From: Dielma fastidiosa
Lineage (GTDB): Bacteria > Bacillota_I > Bacilli_A > Erysipelotrichales > Erysipelotrichaceae
DNA: 64,000 nt
Assembly: GCF_000313565.1 (NCBI RefSeq)
Contig: NZ_HE578927.1
Coordinates: 168,334-232,333, forward strand
Reading direction: 5' to 3'
In this document: one piece after another, positions 9,200 through 48,800 of the stretch
Numbering within the stretch: position 1 is the first letter of the stretch
How the letters are laid out: the number at the start of each line of letters is the position of its first letter
Notes under the pieces: generated by a model
Seen by the model: the letters and a program-made list of their open reading frames with translations, nothing else
What the model was told of the DNA's origin: nothing
Database searches by the model: none
Translations under genes and position numbers: made by a program

Positions 9200-10546
9200 T
9201 CAGGCTTTAAATTTATTGATTCTAAAAATTACACCTTTGGTCATATTTTCACCAGAAACATTATAACCATTCGCTGTCGTTACCTTATAAACGATGGATA
9301 AACCAATACCAAACTGGCCGCCCTGTCCCTTTTCAAAAGGTTTAAATAAAGAAGCGATGCGGCTCTCTGACATACAAGGGCCATCATTGGAAATACTCAG
9401 CTCATCTTCATTCAGTTTAATTTTTACCTGCGTCTGCGCGTAACGCAAAGAATTCTCCAATAGATTCTCCACTGTAATACGCCATGGCTCCTTGGAACCA
9501 TTAAAATAAACCTCTTTCAGATCAGCCTTGATTTCAATATCCGGTTTTACTGCCTTCATAGCCAGCAGAACCTCCTCAATAACTTCCTTCATATTGGTAC
9601 GCTTTTCACCGGTATTCTGTGACACAAGATATTCAACACGATTCAGATAAAGCAAGGAATGCACCTTACGCTCTAAACGATTCGCATTATCAATAATAAC
9701 ATCGACACTCTTTTCAAGCGTATCATATGGATAAATACCATCCTTAATTGATTCACCATAAGATTTAATCGTAGCTATCGGCGTCTTAAGATCATGAGAA
9801 ATATTATGAATCATTTCCTCCTTGGTCTTCTCTTGACGCTTCAGCTCCTGACGCATGCTGACTAACGCATCCGCCAGTTCACCAATTTCATCATTACGAT
9901 TTACCTTCAGCTCAGCATCCTCACCCAGCTTAATCTTTTCAATGTAATTACGAATCTGATTCAATGGATGAATCAGATAACCCATCCAAATCATCAGCAC
10001 AATAAAGAACACGCCAACCGCGATTACCGTAATATTGATTACACTGCTTAACAGCGTATCCCGATACATTGTTCGGTATTCCTTGGTAACCAAAGATACC
10101 ACCGCAAAATTAGGACTGGCAATATTAATCGCATAATAACCGCCGTCATAAGTATAATGGCCGACCTCAACACCGTCCTCCATCTGCTTCAGCAGCTGCT
10201 TGCCGATGGTCAGCGTCAGCGAGCGGTTGTTGTTTAACGTTTCCGAGGCAGAAGAATAATTGCCTTTATCGGTATAGAAGATATGAATCATCATCGTATC
10301 TTTCTGCGTGTCTTCTAATTGAAGGGTGATGATCTTATCCTCATCAACCCCCATCTTATATAGATTGACGATAATCGATTGATTGCGGTCAATGATATTA
10401 AACATTTGATCTCGGATAAAATCATCAACATTTCCGGTCAGAAAGATAAAGAAAAAGGAAGAGAAAAAAGCGATGAAAAAGAATATCAGAACAAACAGCT
10501 GCTGGGATAATGATAAATTCTTGACCCACGCATTCAGCTTTTTCAT
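9200..10546 (-). CDS. Sensor histidine kinase
   Basis: A 448-residue membrane kinase: TM1 about residues 15-37, an extracellular sensor of about 130 residues, TM2 about 168-192, HAMP about 192-240, HisKA with phospho-acceptor H251 in ISHDLKTP, and a HATPase domain with N-box ENLLENSLRYA and FEKGQGGQFGIGLSIV. It phosphorylates the response regulator encoded immediately upstream, whose stop overlaps this start (TAATG). The extracellular domain is not one I recognise, so the signal is unknown. Adjacent wall-synthesis genes hint at an envelope signal, which is inference only. Confidence 0.9.
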   Translation of the reverse strand: MKKLNAWVKNLSLSQQLFVLIFFFIAFFSSFFFIFLTGNVDDFIRDQMFNIIDRNQSIIVNLYKMGVDEDKIITLQLEDTQKDTMMIHIFYTDKGNYSSASETLNNNRSLTLTIGKQLLKQMEDGVEVGHYTYDGGYYAINIASPNFAVVSLVTKEYRTMYRDTLLSSVINITVIAVGVFFIVLMIWMGYLIHPLNQIRNYIEKIKLGEDAELKVNRNDEIGELADALVSMRQELKRQEKTKEEMIHNISHDLKTPIATIKSYGESIKDGIYPYDTLEKSVDVIIDNANRLERKVHSLLYLNRVEYLVSQNTGEKRTNMKEVIEEVLLAMKAVKPDIEIKADLKEVYFNGSKEPWRITVENLLENSLRYAQTQVKIKLNEDELSISNDGPCMSESRIASLFKPFEKGQGGQFGIGLSIVYKVTTANGYNVSGENMTKGVIFRINKFKA

Positions 10547-17967: not shown

Positions 17968-20526
17968 CTAATCAATTATATGTCCTTGATAATCAATATC
18001 TAAATATTTATTATCAATTGCACTATGAAAAAATAAATTATTTTTATCATAGGTTAATCCTTCAACAGAAGTAAGAACAGTATTGGGTTTCTCATACAAA
18101 ATGCCAACATTTACTCTTGTAATTTCAGAATTTGTTATTTCTAATTCACCCTGATATATAATAGTAGGTGCAGAGTAACCTTCATCCGCTCTCTTAGTTG
18201 TATAAAATTTACTATTGCTAATTATTGTTTTTCCATATGCATAATTAAATTTACCACAAGCGCTATAATTACCATTAACTACAACATTATCTAAAACAGT
18301 ATTAGTAGCATGTGAATATATGCCAGTAGCACCTATTACAGTTGATGTTTCAACATTTACAATAGCATTTTTAACTGTCAATGAATTATTTTCATCAACC
18401 ATCTGAATTACACCTGCATTACCTATTGCAGAACTACTATATATACCGCCATCAATTTCAATAACACAACCTTTTGTTCCATAAATTGCCCACCCATTAT
18501 CATTTTTGGCATTCACTTTAAATTCATTAGTAGCATCAACTGATATTTTTAATGTACTGCCACTACGAAAATTTTTCTCAGCATAGAAACAACCAATGAC
18601 TGTTCCTGATCCTAATACTTCTAATTTTTTAGCTGGTGAAATTCTTAATGAACCTTTACCTTCATTTATTGTTATGGTTGTACCATTTATATCTAGAATA
18701 ACATCCTCGTTAAATGTTGCATTTTCAGACAATGTAATATCATCAGTTAAAACGACCGTATCTCCCTGAATATAATCATTCAGCATTTTTTGAAATGAAT
18801 CTTCTGTATCAACTTCATACTTAATATTATTCAAATAATATTCAACTTGACCAGTTACATTTTTACTATGAAGGCCGTTACTAGCATCTGAGATCACTTC
18901 TATCTGATCTGTACCTTTAGCCAATATAGTTGGAAGATTATTCTGACCATTAGGCTCTCTGAATTCAGATGTATTCACAACCTTAGCTTTAGTAACATCA
19001 AGGCTGCTCTTACCGCTTTCGCCAGTTAGTCTTGCTAGCTCAATACCGCTTGCTGTATTCCCTGATACATCAACTTTACCTTCCAACTGAACACTTGAAC
19101 CATTAACTAATAAAGAAGTATCAGCGCCAGTCAATTTAATATTTTTCAAAATAACTTGGGCACTAAGATTATTGAAAGCAATAACATACGAATTCTCCTC
19201 ATTTTGAGAAAGATAAGTAATCGCGTTGCCTTGACCGTCAATGGTAAATGACTTAACATCCTCTGGAATCATATCTTGATTAATGTTAATCTGTCTACCA
19301 GTGGTGAAATTTTTTCCAATTAATATTTCTCCGCCATCTGTTAATTCTTTTAAAGCAGCGATTAACTCAGCCTCATTCTTAACTCCCTTTTCAACAACTG
19401 GCGGCACATATCCTCCGCCGCCTGATGAACCACCAGTCGAAGGTTTATTTACTTCCGGTGCTTTTTCAACTTCATCAGCCTTATCTACATCTTTGATAAT
19501 TGTATCTTTACCAGCTTCTACACCATCAGCATTGACTTCTACCTTATTGACAGTACCGTTGCCATCAATCTTTACTGGTGCATCTGCCGTTAATGTGCCT
19601 ATGGTACTTCCTTTGGTTACTTCCACTTTAGTATCCTTTGCTGTCTCGGTAACGACTACATTCTTCACATCGGCATTTACCTTGATTTGAGTATCAGTTA
19701 TTACTTCAAGGTTTTCAACCGGTGCCTGAATGTCTATACTTGCATAGGTGCGTGTCATTACTTCCTGTGTTGGTACTTCAATCTTAATTTCATCTTTGGT
19801 TGTTGATTGAACTTCAATTGTTTCTACTTCACCATTGAAATTCTTATCCGGTGTTACCAATGCTGTCTCTTCCAATACAATAGCCTTAACTTTCGTTTCA
19901 CCGCTTAAAACAACTTCTGTATTTCTAGTCTGATTGCTGATAGTATCAACTGTCGAATCCTTTAGAACGACTTTTCCAGCTGTTTCATTATCACCTAATA
20001 CAACTAGCTTCCCTTTGATGATTACTTTGCTTAACTCAATTTCTTTTGCGGCAGTCACATCCACATACAGATTCCCTTCAATAACTTCACCCGAAATTGC
20101 ATTGGGGTCTGTCACAACTATCGAGTTGGATTCAGCTAACGGAATAGCTTTTCCATCGCTAGTTAATTCATAACCATCTTTAACATAGTCCTTTGCCATA
20201 ACGCCGGTACCTTTAAGATAATAAAGAGAGCCATTATCTTCTACCCATGCATCCACCTGCATGACACCGGATTCACCCATGAAATACCAATGCTCATGAG
20301 ATGCTATCCAGCCAGTCCGCATAATTCCATTTTCATCAAACGCATACCAACAATCACCATCTTCAAGCCAGCCAGTTGCTAATGAATTATCATTTTTAAC
20401 ATAAGACCATAAGCCATCATTATTAACCCATTGTGACTCAACTGCCTTAATTGGCAATGTCACTGAACAAAGCATTGCAGCTACAACTAAAGCAGTCACT
20501 GCTGACTTTGTTTTATTTGATTTCAT
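17968..20526 (-). CDS. Secreted surface protein with N-terminal cell-wall-binding repeats and a right-handed beta-helix-like region
   Basis: An 852-residue exported protein. Signal peptide residues 1-30 end near IKAVES. Residues about 31-130 hold four choline-binding-like repeats (WVNNDGLWSYV, GWLEDGDCWYAFDENGIM, GWIASHEHWYFMGESGVM, AWVEDNGSLYYLKGTGVM) that would tether it to wall glycopolymers. Residues about 140-360 are Val/Lys/Glu-rich beta repeats. A Gly/Pro linker (STGGSSGGGGYVPP) follows, then about 450 residues resembling pectate-lyase-type beta-helix repeats (IDGQGNAITYL, LTVKNAIVNVETS). No catalytic site is evident; adhesion is the best guess. The ribosome site is GGGGAGG. Its promoter region carries three palindromic sites. 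Confidence 0.8.
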   Translation of the reverse strand: MKSNKTKSAVTALVVAAMLCSVTLPIKAVESQWVNNDGLWSYVKNDNSLATGWLEDGDCWYAFDENGIMRTGWIASHEHWYFMGESGVMQVDAWVEDNGSLYYLKGTGVMAKDYVKDGYELTSDGKAIPLAESNSIVVTDPNAISGEVIEGNLYVDVTAAKEIELSKVIIKGKLVVLGDNETAGKVVLKDSTVDTISNQTRNTEVVLSGETKVKAIVLEETALVTPDKNFNGEVETIEVQSTTKDEIKIEVPTQEVMTRTYASIDIQAPVENLEVITDTQIKVNADVKNVVVTETAKDTKVEVTKGSTIGTLTADAPVKIDGNGTVNKVEVNADGVEAGKDTIIKDVDKADEVEKAPEVNKPSTGGSSGGGGYVPPVVEKGVKNEAELIAALKELTDGGEILIGKNFTTGRQININQDMIPEDVKSFTIDGQGNAITYLSQNEENSYVIAFNNLSAQVILKNIKLTGADTSLLVNGSSVQLEGKVDVSGNTASGIELARLTGESGKSSLDVTKAKVVNTSEFREPNGQNNLPTILAKGTDQIEVISDASNGLHSKNVTGQVEYYLNNIKYEVDTEDSFQKMLNDYIQGDTVVLTDDITLSENATFNEDVILDINGTTITINEGKGSLRISPAKKLEVLGSGTVIGCFYAEKNFRSGSTLKISVDATNEFKVNAKNDNGWAIYGTKGCVIEIDGGIYSSSAIGNAGVIQMVDENNSLTVKNAIVNVETSTVIGATGIYSHATNTVLDNVVVNGNYSACGKFNYAYGKTIISNSKFYTTKRADEGYSAPTIIYQGELEITNSEITRVNVGILYEKPNTVLTSVEGLTYDKNNLFFHSAIDNKYLDIDYQGHIID

Positions 20527-20555
20527 TCCATTACCTCCCCAGGTTTTTTTGAATA

Positions 20556-20583
20556 TGTCTTAAAAGGTATACCTTTTGAGACA
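20556..20583. promoter_or_regulatory. Palindromic operator O1 in the leader of the surface-protein gene
   Basis: A 28-base palindrome has left arm TGTCTTAAAAGGTA and a near-perfect reverse-complement right arm TACCTTTTGAGACA (one mismatch). The centre at 20569.5 is 29.5 bases downstream of the minus-strand -10, so it falls at about +10 to +38 of the transcript. Confidence 0.75.
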
Positions 20584-20598
20584 CTATATTTCTCTTCC

Positions 20599-20627
20599 AT
20601 TATAGGCATTTTTATTGCATTCGTAAA
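20599..20627 (-). promoter_or_regulatory. Promoter of the surface-protein gene
   Basis: On the minus strand TTTACG (20622-20627) and TATAAT (20599-20604) are spaced by 17 bases. The same -35/-10 arrangement recurs at 44089-44117. Confidence 0.65.
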
Positions 20628-20636
20628 GGTATAACG
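20625..20636. promoter_or_regulatory. Degenerate operator O2 abutting the -35
   Basis: AAAGGTATAACG matches the GGTATACC core with one change. Its centre (20631.5) lies 62 bases from O1 and 63 bases from O3, so the three sites are evenly phased by about six helical turns. Confidence 0.5.
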
Positions 20637-20680
20637 TCCGTTTTATGTAATTTCAAGGTTGTTTTTTACAACGATGTGAG

Positions 20681-20708
20681 TGTATTATAAGGTATACCTT
20701 TTAAGACG
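20681..20708. promoter_or_regulatory. Palindromic operator O3 upstream of the surface-protein promoter
   Basis: Left arm TGTATTATAAGGTA and right arm TACCTTTTAAGACG, centred at 20694.5. The right arm is nearly identical to the consensus half site; the left arm has diverged. Confidence 0.65.
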
Positions 20709-20719
20709 CTTTCCCTGTT

Positions 20720-28016: not shown

Positions 28017-28290
28017 AAAAAAAGGCTTTATCTCTAAGAGACAAAACCTTTGGTTCTGCGGTACCACTCCAATTACTGTCAAAGACAGTCACTCTTCTGA
28101 CATCTCCGGAAAAATCCTTTTAATGCAGAACACCGTAACGAGTGTTAATCGTTCTAACTTACTTGAACCCTTTCAGCAGACTGTTCATGGGTGATTTTCC
28201 TAAACCTGACGCTCTCTGTTTTTCACCGGTCAACAGCTCTCTGTGCAGCGTCCTTGCTTAGTACTCTTCCCAATCATCACATTTGTTATG
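28017..28290 (-). ncRNA. T-box riboswitch, isoleucine-type specifier
   Basis: A minus-strand leader of about 270 nt ahead of the BASS transporter. It has AGAGAG-CTGT...GGTG-AAA-ACAG in the apical part of stem I, an AGTA/GAAA specifier-loop (loop E) pair, the T-box AATTGGAGTGGTACCGC at 28058-28074 and a following terminator (AAGGTTTTGTCTC...GAGATAAAGCCTT then T-run). Aligning the specifier loop to the known glyQS layout (GAAA-specifier-A) places the specifier at 28193-28195 as ATC, isoleucine. UGGU in the T-box bulge fits a tRNA with discriminator A. Uncharged tRNA-Ile would allow read-through. Confidence 0.88.
28058..28074 (-). promoter_or_regulatory. T-box antiterminator core
   Basis: Reads AATTGGAGTGGTACCGC on the minus strand, matching the conserved T-box sequence that pairs with the tRNA 3' end. 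Confidence 0.9.
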
Positions 28291-43801: not shown

Positions 43802-44008
43802 AGAATAAAAGCATAATTAAACAAAAAGGGAAGTGATAAAAACTTGGGCGAAAATATCACTTCCCAGCGGCGGAGATGTTATCATTAACGACAGCATCTC
43901 CATATTCTGATTTAGAATCCAAATGTTACTTAATATACTGATCCGTCTTCTGTTTATGAAGAAACTATCAGTATTTTTTTATCACTCCAACATAATCAAT
44001 TTGTGAAG
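43802..44008 (+). ncRNA. Structured 3' region after the GGDEF gene, candidate small RNA
   Basis: Three consecutive stems follow the stop codon. Stem 1 at 43828-43865 is GGGAAGTGATA/TATCACTTCCC (11 bp), stem 2 at 43872-43901 is GGAGATG/CATCTCC, and stem 3 is an intrinsic terminator at 43935-43980. One terminator would be enough, so the first two stems may be part of a processed RNA. No known RNA family was recognised. Confidence 0.4.
43935..43980 (+). terminator. Terminator of the GGDEF gene
   Basis: TACTGAT pairs with ATCAGTA, with an inner TCTTC/GAAGA pairing, followed by a seven-T run. Confidence 0.8.
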
Positions 44009-44036
44009 TGTATCATTAAGTATACTTTTTGTCACA
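44009..44036. promoter_or_regulatory. Upstream palindrome of the second operator module
   Basis: TGTATCATTAAGTA and TACTTTTTGTCACA, centred at 44022.5, resemble operator O3 at 20681-20708. It is 124 bases from the second palindrome (125 bases in the first locus). Confidence 0.55.
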
Positions 44037-44088
44037 CTCTGATTTATGCAAAAAAGGGTTCAAAACAGCATAAAAAGGTCTGATTTTC

Positions 44089-44117
44089 TTTACAAAACAG
44101 ACAAAAACACCTATAAT
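44089..44117 (+). promoter_or_regulatory. Orphan promoter in the second operator module
   Basis: TTTACA (44089-44094) and TATAAT (44112-44117) are spaced by 17 bases. The flanks (TAAAA.GG.C upstream, CCTATAAT) match the promoter of the 852-residue surface protein. Confidence 0.65.
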
Positions 44118-44132
44118 TATAAAGAATCCAGG

Positions 44133-44160
44133 TGTCTTATAAAGTATACATTACAAGACA
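44133..44160. promoter_or_regulatory. Leader palindrome of the second operator module
   Basis: TGTCTTATAAAGTA and TACATTACAAGACA, centred at 44146.5, are flanked by matching G and C. The centre is 29.5 bases downstream of the -10, exactly as in the first locus. Confidence 0.65.
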
Positions 44161-44201
44161 CTTACAGATATGTGACTGAATATTCGGCAAACATTAATTA
44201 T

Positions 44202-44262
44202 AAAAGTCTGAAAAGTAAGACAATCTTTAATCCGTGATGTCTTTACAATTTCAGACTTTTTT
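44202..44262. terminator. Long terminator hairpin between convergent transcripts
   Basis: AAAAGTCTGAAA pairs with TTTCAGACTTTT and TAAGACA pairs with TGTCTTTA inside it; T-runs lie on both strands. It serves the 1510-residue surface protein on the minus strand and the candidate small RNA on the plus strand. Confidence 0.75.
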
Positions 44263-44267
44263 AGTTT

Positions 44268-47200
44268 TTAATTATAGAGCGGACTCCAATAAATGCCGTC
44301 TTCATTAATCCAACAGTCATCAACCCATTGATTTCTAACCATTCTGCCTTCGCTGTCAAGATAATACCAGCGTCCCTCAGAAGTAGGATGCCAGCGATTC
44401 GTGACATAAGTATAATTTTCAAATAAATACCAATCATTCCAATGTGCCTGCCAATATTGATAACGGGCTGTGTAATCCTCTTTAAAATAATACCAGATGC
44501 CATTAACTTCCAGCCATGACTGTACTAAACGACCATCTTCTCTTGCAGCATATACCTTATATTTATCGCCATAATCGGTAATTAACTGATCAAATGGTCG
44601 GGTATTCACCAAATTATTAAATTCATCAAGAATTACCCATTCTTGTTTTGCAACTGTTTTATCATCTTTGATGAAATAGACAGCTTCAGCAATCTCAGAA
44701 ATAACTGATAATTGTTCAGGCTTCACAGCGGCAACCAACTTTTCATCTTTATCCAAGAGGATAAACCCACTTTCAACTTGCTTGCCATTGTTATAATAAT
44801 AAGTTTTATTCTTTTCCTCTACGAATCCATCTGCTTTGCTTGAAGGTGCAGAACTGCCGCCCCCACCACCGCCGGATGGTAAATCGCTGCTGGTTTTCTC
44901 TTTAATCTTAAAGGTGATGGTTAGCGTATCTTCCCCAGTTACATCATTCCACACACTGCCATCATATTTCTGTTTTTGGAAGACTACGTTCAAAGTATTG
45001 CTGCCAACAGACAATGTGGAAGTATCAATTTCACCAGTATAAGGTCCTGCCTCATTAAAGCTATTTTCAGTTAATACCTGCCACTTTACAGGCAGCCAGC
45101 GCACAGCATTAGTTTGCGGTGAAGTAACATTCATACCATCACCAATTGCAGTAAAACTAATCTTATCACCTTTAGTATATTCACTATCATTAACAATCCC
45201 TGTGACTGAATTATGAGGTGCAACAATTTCACTCTTCACATATTTCCATTTGTGAGGTGCGCTAGCTTCATCATTCCTTAACTCATATTCATCACTATCA
45301 TAAGTGAATGATTCAGTACCACCGCCAGTAACTGTGATATATGTTTGATCTACAACAGGTGTACCATCAATTTCAACCGTTGTTGTACCAGATGCGGTAC
45401 CGCCAATTGTGAATGTTTTTCCATCTTCAAGACGAAGTGTGCCACCGCCGATATAGTTTCCTAAAATACTATCATTTTGTGCCGTGCTAGAATTTGTTAA
45501 ATCTAATTTACCACCTGGCTGAATCGTTAACTCTTCCACGTCGAAAAACAGATTATATTGATTGTTTGATCCGTCACTCCCCTTCTCTGATAGTTTCAAA
45601 ACTGCGTTATCTGTGACGATAACTTCATTAACATTTAAAATATACTCGCTGTTTAATATTGTCTCAGTTGTGCCATCACCAATAAACAATTTGATATCAT
45701 TATTGACTACACTTGTCGCATACGCCCCAGAGCCTGTAAAAGTAATAGGTGAATTTTGGATACCTGTAACATGAAATTCCATGTTATCTAAGCTACTGTA
45801 ATAATAACCGCCAGCATATAATTGCTGCTTGACAGTATTCCCCTCTTTTAACTCAATAATTGATGTTCCGTTGATTATTGCATTATTTCCGTCAGCGCCC
45901 ATACTTCCCCCATATGCAGAAGATAATACTGTATTAGTGAATATCATTTTCATATTACCAGTAATATCTGCATTTGTGCCAGCTTTTGCATCAGCATTAC
46001 GGCCACCGCCATATATGGCACCATTGATAGTTGAATTATTATATTTTGTTGTGACATTGCCAGTAATGTTTGCAGTTCCACCAGTTGCGGCATAACCTCC
46101 GCCATATATAGAATATGACATTGGATTATCTAGATTTTGCATTGTAAATTCAATATTGCCGATTATATCTGCATTCGTAGTCTGCTTTCCATAACCGCCA
46201 ATAATTAATGTCTCTTGGGGAATTGTACCATCAAACGTTAATGATAAATTGCCATATATATTAACTGTTCCACCACCAAATTGAGCATAACCGCCATTAT
46301 ATAACCATATGCCAGAACTGGATGTACGCATTGTATTTGTTCCGTTCCCTTTAAAAGTAGTCTTAACTGACACAGGATTATCTTTTGTTCCAATATCTGC
46401 TGAGCTGGCTGAATTATACAAATAACCAGCCCCATAATAGTTAGCACACGAAAAATCACCATTAATTGTATAATCAAGGCCACCTGCTACATTTGCTGTT
46501 GTATTAGGATTTTTAGCATAACCAGCAGCTGCATAATTTGCTCCTACACTGACACCACCAGTAAATGAAGTAGTTATCTTTCCACCCACACTAGCAGAGG
46601 AATTCGCGCCCTCAGTAAATCCGCCACCATAATATGACTGCTTAAATTCAATATTTTTTCCAAATGTAGATGTAATATTACCTTCAACATTACTTAGAGC
46701 CTTAGCATTTAATGATGAAGTCACTCTTACTACTTTACCAGCTCCGACATAATCCTTATTAAAAATGCAGTTATCTTTAATTGTGATATTGATTGAACCA
46801 TCAACACTCGCGTCTCCGGCTCTGACAACTATACCACCCCCTACCATTCCTTCATTAAACTCAATATCATCAGCAATATTAATACTTATATCACCAAGCA
46901 CTTTAGCAATTGCAGGACACATATCAAAAGTATCCCCATAACTATCATTAGTTGCATTTCCACTAGCTAAACCGCCACCAACTATACTAGCTCCTCTGTC
47001 AGTATCATATGTAGAGATTGTACTACCAGCCTTAATTTCTATTTTGCTTCCGCCTACGTTCGCTTGGCTAATTCTTAAGTCAAGAGTTTGATTGGCAAGG
47101 TCATAATTTCCATCTGCCTTTCCTCCACCATAAATTGCAGGTGTATTCTCATAACCTTCAAACTGATTATCAATAGGAACAATTGTAATATTCGTTGTTT

Positions 47201-48800
47201 TTTTCACATCGGCTGTACCTCCAAAAGCGGCATGACCACCAGCTGCTAAAAACGATGAACTTAAAGCAGGGCCCCTGCCACATTGAACATATGTACTACC
47301 CAACACATTCGCATTAGCCCCTCTGCCATCTGCATTACCACCAGCATACAAATAATAAATCGTTCGTTCATTCAACTGACTTTCTCCTGCTGCTGAATCC
47401 TTGTCCACCTTAATTTTTACATCACCAGAAACTACTGCATTCGTAACAATGTTCCAATCACCAGTACCGTCATTATAATTACTGTTCCCAGATGCTAAAC
47501 CGCCACCAATGATATGTAGCCCAGCACCCATATATTTACCATTGCCACTTTGCGCATCTTCACCAAAGTTTAAAGTTATATCTCCGCCAACATTTGCATT
47601 GAGTGTCATTGTCTTGCACGTTTCTGCTTTTGCCGCACCTCCACCGACAATTGCATCGTTGAGACAATACACATCGCCATTTATATCCAATTTAATATTT
47701 CCGCTAACATTCGCACTATATGTTCCTGATTGTTCACTCGTTGCATAACCGCCGCCGTAAAGCACATTATGAACATGCCCATCTTTGAGTAATTGAATCT
47801 CTATATTTCCAGTCACATCTGCATTAATAGTTGATAACGATTGATTTTTATCAGGTTCGGCATGCCCGCCACCAATTAAAGACCAGCCTACATAACCTCC
47901 CACAATCAGCTTAATATCACCGGTAACCTTATGATTATATCCGCCGCCATAAATTGAGCCAGATGATTCCAACCTGCCATAAAATTCTATTTCAGGTGAA
48001 CCGATAATATCTTCCTCATAACCGCCGCCGTATATATCACTATTATATATTCCATCATTAGATATTTTAATATCCTTTCCAACATACAGTTTCTTACCGT
48101 TCACATATATATTCAATAAAGCACCATTACCTGAAATGGATAATGTTCTGGGTGTTCCATCTGTATCAGAATCTATCGTTAATGAAGTAATTCGATCAGG
48201 TATTTCAAAAGCACCTGTACTTGCGTTACGAGTTTCAGTGACATCGCTATTCAGCTTCACAATCACATCACCGCTCAATAAAGAGTCATTAAACAGCTCA
48301 ATAAAATTAGCGTAATCAGCATTAACCTCTGATCCCACCGTTTTTTCAATAGCTTTATTATCATAGACTATTAATTCATTGTTCTGCATTTGATTTTCAA
48401 CATTTACCACAATGTAAGGAAGTGCATCCTGCCCTTGAAGCAATTCATCAGACAGCTGATAAAGTGTCTCATCCCATTTTGGCACATAAACAATCTGATC
48501 ATAAGTTTCTGTTTTTATATCCCAGTTTACCATTAATTTTTCCGGTTCTGAACTGTTTTCAATCCATACATCTAAACTTTCAGGAAGCATCAGATTCTCT
48601 TTCTCTTCAGCATTTACCATAAAATTCATATATGGCTTATTTTCATTAGGTTCATAACCAACAAACTCAGTAATCCGTTGAATGTCTTCTATGACATTCT
48701 CTTCCTTTTTTGAATCTTCTGCACTTACCGTTGGGCATTCGGAAAGAACAAGAAGCACACTCAAAAAAGAGGAACAAAAAATTCTTCCAATCCTTTTCAT
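44268..48800 (-). CDS. Very large repetitive secreted surface protein with C-terminal cell-wall-binding repeats
   Basis: A 1510-residue exported protein. Signal peptide 1-27 (MKRIGRIFCSSFLSVLLVLS.. ending VSAEDS). After about 200 residues come some twenty irregular repeats of 40-60 residues built around a Gly-rich turn and a beta strand (IYGGGY...ANVSGNIKLDING pattern), a likely beta-solenoid adhesin or polysaccharide-interacting stalk. Around 1290-1310 is a Gly/Ser linker (DLPSGGGGGGSSAPSS), then choline-binding-like repeats (WLEVNGIWYYFKED, WYLFENYTY, RWYYLDSEGRMVRNQW) for wall attachment. No enzyme motif was found. Single gene; the ribosome site is AAGGAG. Confidence 0.82.
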   Translation of the reverse strand: MKRIGRIFCSSFLSVLLVLSECPTVSAEDSKKEENVIEDIQRITEFVGYEPNENKPYMNFMVNAEEKENLMLPESLDVWIENSSEPEKLMVNWDIKTETYDQIVYVPKWDETLYQLSDELLQGQDALPYIVVNVENQMQNNELIVYDNKAIEKTVGSEVNADYANFIELFNDSLLSGDVIVKLNSDVTETRNASTGAFEIPDRITSLTIDSDTDGTPRTLSISGNGALLNIYVNGKKLYVGKDIKISNDGIYNSDIYGGGYEEDIIGSPEIEFYGRLESSGSIYGGGYNHKVTGDIKLIVGGYVGWSLIGGGHAEPDKNQSLSTINADVTGNIEIQLLKDGHVHNVLYGGGYATSEQSGTYSANVSGNIKLDINGDVYCLNDAIVGGGAAKAETCKTMTLNANVGGDITLNFGEDAQSGNGKYMGAGLHIIGGGLASGNSNYNDGTGDWNIVTNAVVSGDVKIKVDKDSAAGESQLNERTIYYLYAGGNADGRGANANVLGSTYVQCGRGPALSSSFLAAGGHAAFGGTADVKKTTNITIVPIDNQFEGYENTPAIYGGGKADGNYDLANQTLDLRISQANVGGSKIEIKAGSTISTYDTDRGASIVGGGLASGNATNDSYGDTFDMCPAIAKVLGDISINIADDIEFNEGMVGGGIVVRAGDASVDGSINITIKDNCIFNKDYVGAGKVVRVTSSLNAKALSNVEGNITSTFGKNIEFKQSYYGGGFTEGANSSASVGGKITTSFTGGVSVGANYAAAGYAKNPNTTANVAGGLDYTINGDFSCANYYGAGYLYNSASSADIGTKDNPVSVKTTFKGNGTNTMRTSSSGIWLYNGGYAQFGGGTVNIYGNLSLTFDGTIPQETLIIGGYGKQTTNADIIGNIEFTMQNLDNPMSYSIYGGGYAATGGTANITGNVTTKYNNSTINGAIYGGGRNADAKAGTNADITGNMKMIFTNTVLSSAYGGSMGADGNNAIINGTSIIELKEGNTVKQQLYAGGYYYSSLDNMEFHVTGIQNSPITFTGSGAYATSVVNNDIKLFIGDGTTETILNSEYILNVNEVIVTDNAVLKLSEKGSDGSNNQYNLFFDVEELTIQPGGKLDLTNSSTAQNDSILGNYIGGGTLRLEDGKTFTIGGTASGTTTVEIDGTPVVDQTYITVTGGGTESFTYDSDEYELRNDEASAPHKWKYVKSEIVAPHNSVTGIVNDSEYTKGDKISFTAIGDGMNVTSPQTNAVRWLPVKWQVLTENSFNEAGPYTGEIDTSTLSVGSNTLNVVFQKQKYDGSVWNDVTGEDTLTITFKIKEKTSSDLPSGGGGGGSSAPSSKADGFVEEKNKTYYYNNGKQVESGFILLDKDEKLVAAVKPEQLSVISEIAEAVYFIKDDKTVAKQEWVILDEFNNLVNTRPFDQLITDYGDKYKVYAAREDGRLVQSWLEVNGIWYYFKEDYTARYQYWQAHWNDWYLFENYTYVTNRWHPTSEGRWYYLDSEGRMVRNQWVDDCWINEDGIYWSPLYN

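Follow-up and report, generated by a model that had tools for sequence, protein, structure and literature searches.

The window, a 64,000-nt stretch of the Dielma fastidiosa genome, carries at 44008-44161 a module of two palindromes on either side of a sigma-A promoter that reads rightward (Table 1). A conserved structured RNA lies to its left on the minus strand, and the gene for a 1510-aa choline-binding-repeat surface protein converges on it from the right. No protein-coding start was found rightward of the module before the terminator common to that gene. The earlier note had placed the palindromes, their start-to-start distance of 124 bp (125 bp at the first locus, 20555-20709) and the TTTACA-17-TATAAT promoter correctly to within one base, and its description of the module as a second copy of the one at 20555-20709 was borne out by an alignment of 157 bp with the minus strand of that locus at 64% identity (E = 5e-11).

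Table 1. Features of the two modules in the window, of their neighbors and of the candidate invertase.
Feature	Position	Strand	Remarks
852-aa choline-binding-repeat surface protein	17968..20526	-	driven by the ON module (predicted)
Gene-proximal site of ON module	20555..20584		outer half ATGTCTTAAAAGGTA, also found unchanged in two OFF modules
Invertible promoter segment, ON orientation	20585..20679	-	TTTACG-17-TATAAT
Distal site of ON module	20680..20709		genome palindrome scan, half-site comparison
Conserved structured RNA	43818..43905	-	hairpin TATGGAGA..TCTCC, linker, terminator hairpin with loop TTTTCGCCCAAGTTTTT, T-run
Predicted leader and small RNA, leftward after inversion (inferred)	43818..44007	-	MFE z = -5.0 over 43818-44030
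Left inverted-repeat recombination site, predicted	44008..44037		30 bp, GTATAC center; RNA-proximal side
Invertible segment, predicted	44038..44131	+	alike in all 14 further complete modules: 13 of this genome, 1 of G006
Sigma-A promoter TTTACA-17-TATAAT	44089..44117	+	inside the segment; now rightward, away from the conserved RNA
Right inverted-repeat recombination site, predicted	44132..44161		30 bp
Inverted repeat / bidirectional terminator of the 44268-48800 gene	44200..44266		ends any present rightward transcript
1510-aa choline-binding-repeat surface protein	44268..48800	-	convergent neighbor; no site pair at its own start
217-aa serine recombinase	G000:C6:331203-331856		outside the window; Resolvase catalytic domain PF00239

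A whole-genome palindrome scan revealed about 17 modules, comprising 14 complete site pairs and 3 cut by N runs, which in the one assembly also hide some surface genes. The palindrome pattern, with up to two mismatches, matched 26 times genome-wide compared with once for the reversed-pattern control, and thus the likeness of the modules is not due to chance. Each of the 14 complete site pairs flanks a strong TTTACR-17-TATAAT-like promoter sequence, and the start-to-start spacings cluster at 114, 124-125 and 135 bp, that is, in helical-turn steps. Twelve complete modules adjoin a gene; in 11 of these, and likewise in two partial modules, the promoter faces away from the gene starting on that side, and a gene may start as little as 28 bp from a module whose promoter faces away. 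These roughly 15 further copies, and the opposite orientations of their promoters relative to genes, go beyond the earlier note. Two near-identical modules beside the same 151-aa gene on different contigs (L035, G000:C9 ~13.7 kb, and L037, C12 ~7.6 kb) are a recent duplication.

The module at 20555-20709 is the sole copy facing its gene among the 12 complete gene-associated modules, with a spacing of 29 bp. The genes next to the module at 8622 in L028 and to that at 20555 in the window are of one family and start 28-29 bp from the palindrome, and the two promoters are oppositely oriented. When the sequences between the site centers were aligned, 20555-20709 matched each of the 14 remaining complete modules, 13 from this genome and one from G006, only if inverted, with example scores of 63 inverted versus 1 uninverted and 57 versus -15; it is therefore a flipped copy of the other modules. 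With C5:33k as the reference, all the OFF modules aligned uninverted (gene-oriented, between site centers). The inner half-sites travel with the promoter, and the outer half on the gene-proximal side remains at the gene, a pattern that marks strand exchange at the GTATAC center. In G006, from a related genus, one orthologous module is located before the same surface-protein family and is OFF as in this genome. Flipping was judged from one assembly per species, the same species being left out of the other collections, and both orientations of the segment relative to its flank were seen between paralogous modules of one genome, not at a single locus. From the orientation survey, the flipped copy and the half-sites, we conclude that the GTATAC-site modules of this genome are, judged by their sequences, invertible promoters and not operators.

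With the conserved RNA taken as the "gene", the orientation of 44008-44161 is that of the OFF copies (33 versus -8 against C5:33k). The module is very probably an inverton, one of about 17, which is OFF toward the conserved small RNA at its left and whose promoter would probably be flipped by a serine recombinase. Its half-sites are more diverged (palindrome symmetry at 22 of 30 positions in 44008-44037 and 26 of 30 in 44132-44161), and of mixed type, so inversion at this locus may be rare. The -10 element reads almost as a palindrome (TATAATTATA), which creates a promoter-like match on the minus strand, TTTATA-16-TATAAT (44143-44116, leftward, 10/12), weaker than the rightward promoter. Because of this match, the 43818-43905 RNA could be transcribed without inversion, and hence weakly in both orientations.

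The conserved RNA belongs to a family of five copies in the genome, characterized by a conserved structure, covariation, an intrinsic terminator of its own and no ORF. The copy at 43818-43905 scored 80.5 bits against the covariance model of the family; the model found exactly the five copies in the genome, and its E-values are rough because it was derived from the same five. Compensatory changes at 8 of the 18 pairs support both stems, and 97.8% of the alignment cells were paired compared with 86.8% in shuffles, none of 500 shuffles being as good. The linker between the two hairpins, GCCG at 43818-43905, is CCGCC-like, and the terminator loop UUUU(C)GCCCAAGUUU is nearly invariant, with CCCAAG in all five copies. 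Four of the five copies lie directly beside invertons, on the gene side, for which a simple post hoc model (four or more of the five at no more than 400 bp from an inverton) gave a chance of about 1e-9. Besides 43818, these are the copy adjoining inverton C9:128k (L036), with no ORF downstream, and those adjoining C7:118k (L033) and C5:102k (L031), both of which precede a DivIVA-like gene; the fifth, at C6:335k, adjoins an N run and is 4 kb away from the serine recombinase. The covariance model detected nothing above 26 bits in 77 relatives and just sub-threshold matches (18-26 bits) at other site-bearing loci. No Rfam match exceeded its gathering score, the best bacterial one being RsaA (19 bits, E 1.2, opposite strand). 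RsaA and RsaE are Gram-positive small RNAs whose conserved C-rich, UCCC-like loop can base-pair with Shine-Dalgarno regions; the present RNA resembles them in its C-rich loop but has no Rfam match above chance. Elsewhere in the window, a T-box leader was detected at 28034-28286 (minus strand, 126 bits).

We infer the following mechanism for flipping at 44008-44161, for the recombinase as its agent, and for an RNA that is made and acts in trans. The 217-aa serine recombinase would probably exchange strands at the palindrome centers and flip the 94-bp promoter segment. In most modules, the ON state would direct the promoter toward a surface-protein or envelope gene and the OFF state would direct it outward, while at 44008-44161 the partner would be the small RNA at 43818-43905. 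As sequenced, the promoter is OFF for the RNA and faces the terminator of the convergent gene. Once inverted, it would give a transcript of about 190 nt that stops at the RNA's own terminator. The earlier claim that the module drives no gene holds for the present orientation; after inversion, the conserved RNA at the left would be transcribed. The small RNA proposed rightward at 44124-44262 showed no conservation except in the terminator of the convergent gene, whereas a conserved structured RNA was found on the opposite side and strand. The idea of a small RNA was probably right, but on the other side of the module and with DNA inversion as its control.

A tentative extension is that the family comprises trans-acting, phase-variable small RNAs, each under an inverton from the set that also controls the surface proteins, whose CCCAAG loop would pair with ACCUGGGGAGG in the Shine-Dalgarno regions of surface-protein genes and/or with CUUGGGAA, a hairpin loop just 3' of the recombinase gene; we consider it rather doubtful. 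If it were true, one flip of an RNA switch would reset many surface genes, or the recombinase itself. The predicted pairing of the 43818 RNA with surface-protein leaders reached -12.1 kcal/mol (mean -7.7, sd 2.2 over 205 starts), and these energies do not discriminate, since other genes also rank high among the 205 starts; the C-rich invariant loop can pair with the Shine-Dalgarno regions, not specifically within this set. The genome contains the loop complement AAACTTGGG 10 times, compared with 27 times for the reversed control, and four of the 10 are the RNA copies. One of the six remaining occurrences is the loop of a hairpin, GTAAAAAA-CTTGGGAA-TTTTTTAC, at G000:C6:331970-331978 (L138 ~9971-9979), 114 nt after the serine recombinase gene; this loop is complementary to the one that is invariant among the five RNAs. 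This hairpin is a lead only as a possible RNA target.

Among the alternatives, it is quite possible, though short of an even chance, that the RNA is a cis-acting leader or attenuator and that the copy at 43818 is a leader without its gene. At C7:118k and C5:102k the RNA indeed sits, terminator-ended, between the inverton and the DivIVA-like gene, but three of the five copies have no same-strand gene downstream and the most conserved part is the terminator loop, not an aptamer. It is unlikely that 44008-44161 is a relic from which a lost surface gene was once driven, with both transcripts being junk ended by the terminators of the neighbors. The lack of an ORF on either side and the degenerate sites with half-site types swapped relative to the other modules would fit such a relic; however, the structured RNA has been kept at 80 bits with compensatory changes, and it recurs as a stand-alone element beside inverton C9:128k and, next to an N run, at C6:335k. 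A functional small RNA in the present rightward transcript of about 140 nt (44124-44262) is very improbable: its predicted folding is good (z = -4.2), but the fold consists of the site palindrome and the terminator of the convergent gene, and the 106-bp right flank has no significant relative among the loci compared. This candidate was dropped, as nothing beyond that terminator is conserved. Finally, the "operator-promoter module" of the earlier note, taken here as operators of a common regulator, a dimeric repressor or activator that would bind both palindromes and loop the DNA, with the 44008 copy as an orphan member, accords with the palindromic sites, the helical-turn spacing and a divergent XRE-family gene beside 20555-20709, but was abandoned on the genome-wide orientation survey and is scarcely credible, since promoters face away from genes in nearly all copies, one copy is the flip of the others, and no other module has an adjacent XRE gene. 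The palindromes behave instead as recombination sites flanking a flippable promoter.

For the inverton reading, an invertase was sought among the recombinase matches of the genome, five serine and ten tyrosine. The probable invertase for the GTATAC sites is the 217-aa serine recombinase. At E 1e-10 its only NCBIfam match was the Mpi family, and only distantly so (57.7 bits against a curated cut-off of 272); it would be Mpi-like in action and is not a member of the Mpi equivalog. Its closest solved relative by sequence (PDB) is Sin/Tn552 bin3, among Sin/gamma-delta relatives. When a degenerate site pattern was scanned over genome contigs, 33 stretches were retrieved, of which many belong to Clostridia MAGs; the site pairs in them are spaced 95-148 bp and often lie near promoters and secreted-protein or flagellin genes. 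In all 17 tested genomes that had been retrieved by the site alone, a serine recombinase homologue was present, in 16 of them at 43-58% identity; G001, G007 and G018 have no such homologue, and G002 and G020 have one without strict sites. In two genomes (Oscillibacter-like L207 and Selenomonas L210), about 70-85 bp separate the recombinase gene from an intact site pair, and six site matches were found in 99 kb around recombinase genes compared with 0.15 expected by a simple post hoc estimate. Tyrosine recombinases were rejected as the invertase: two are Xer-type by best NCBIfam matches, another is surrounded by phage-like genes, and the distribution of L041 (309 aa) does not match that of the sites, with homologues of at least 45% in only 6 of the 17 site-bearing genomes. 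No named genome with the surface-protein family was found, and phages, plasmids and viral contigs gave no match.

The best-known case of many promoters inverted by one recombinase is that of Bacteroides. In Mycoplasma penetrans, many independent short invertible promoters precede the mpl lipoprotein genes, one surface-protein family, and are switched by a tyrosine recombinase at short repeats. The present system is similar in having many invertible promoters before a surface-protein family, and differs in its long GTATAC palindromes and, probably, its serine recombinase. According to two inverton studies, multi-promoter inversion under one recombinase is already known from Mpi, RecV and inverton surveys (PMC11892184, PMC5903667), and Mpi of Bacteroides fragilis is described there as one small serine recombinase that flips many promoters and controls surface structures (PMC5903667, PMC11892184). 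As far as those texts describe Mpi, both systems have many short promoters with shared inverted repeats and a small serine recombinase (here a putative one), and they differ in phylum, site sequence and promoter type, as well as in their targets: in the present system, choline-binding-repeat surface proteins together with a family of small RNAs. The RecV switches of Clostridioides difficile (cwpV and flagellar; seven in all) likewise provide surface phase variation by short inversions in a gut firmicute, but with a tyrosine recombinase and mostly unrelated repeats (PMC5903667). The hCom2 study sorts invertons by the repeats that they share, among them novel motifs from Firmicutes_A (groups 139 and 125), and links group 139 to tyrosine recombinases (PMC11892184); sharing of repeats is common to those invertons and the present ones, a comparison made by description and not by motif sequence. 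The literature search, which covered openly readable paper texts, found no description of the GTATAC site motif or family and no small-RNA family under invertible promoters.

The modules present a similar multi-promoter inversion anatomy in a Gram-positive lineage, and the TCTCAAAAAGTATACTTTTTGAGA-like site motif and the candidate invertase can be traced across Clostridia. The arrangement at 44008-44161 suggests that bacteria flip regulatory RNA, not protein genes alone, and the cell may turn such an RNA on and off at random; if this is true, a random switch would have effects in trans.

TCTCAAAAAGTATACTTTTTGAGA-like sites, paired or single, also occur close to a flagellin gene, to a serine recombinase belonging to this family, or to both, in L207, L210, L172, L176, L174 and L217, from other Clostridia, Selenomonas and an Erysipelotrichales MAG, which suggests that flagellin is phase-variable there through a similar enzyme. 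In the MAG Lapin-002 bin128 (L152, L157, L160 and L180), several site pairs are exactly 105 bp apart with TTGACA-17-TATACT between them, and those of L160 and L180, both in the OFF orientation, precede secreted proteins of about 1400 aa that are paralogues.
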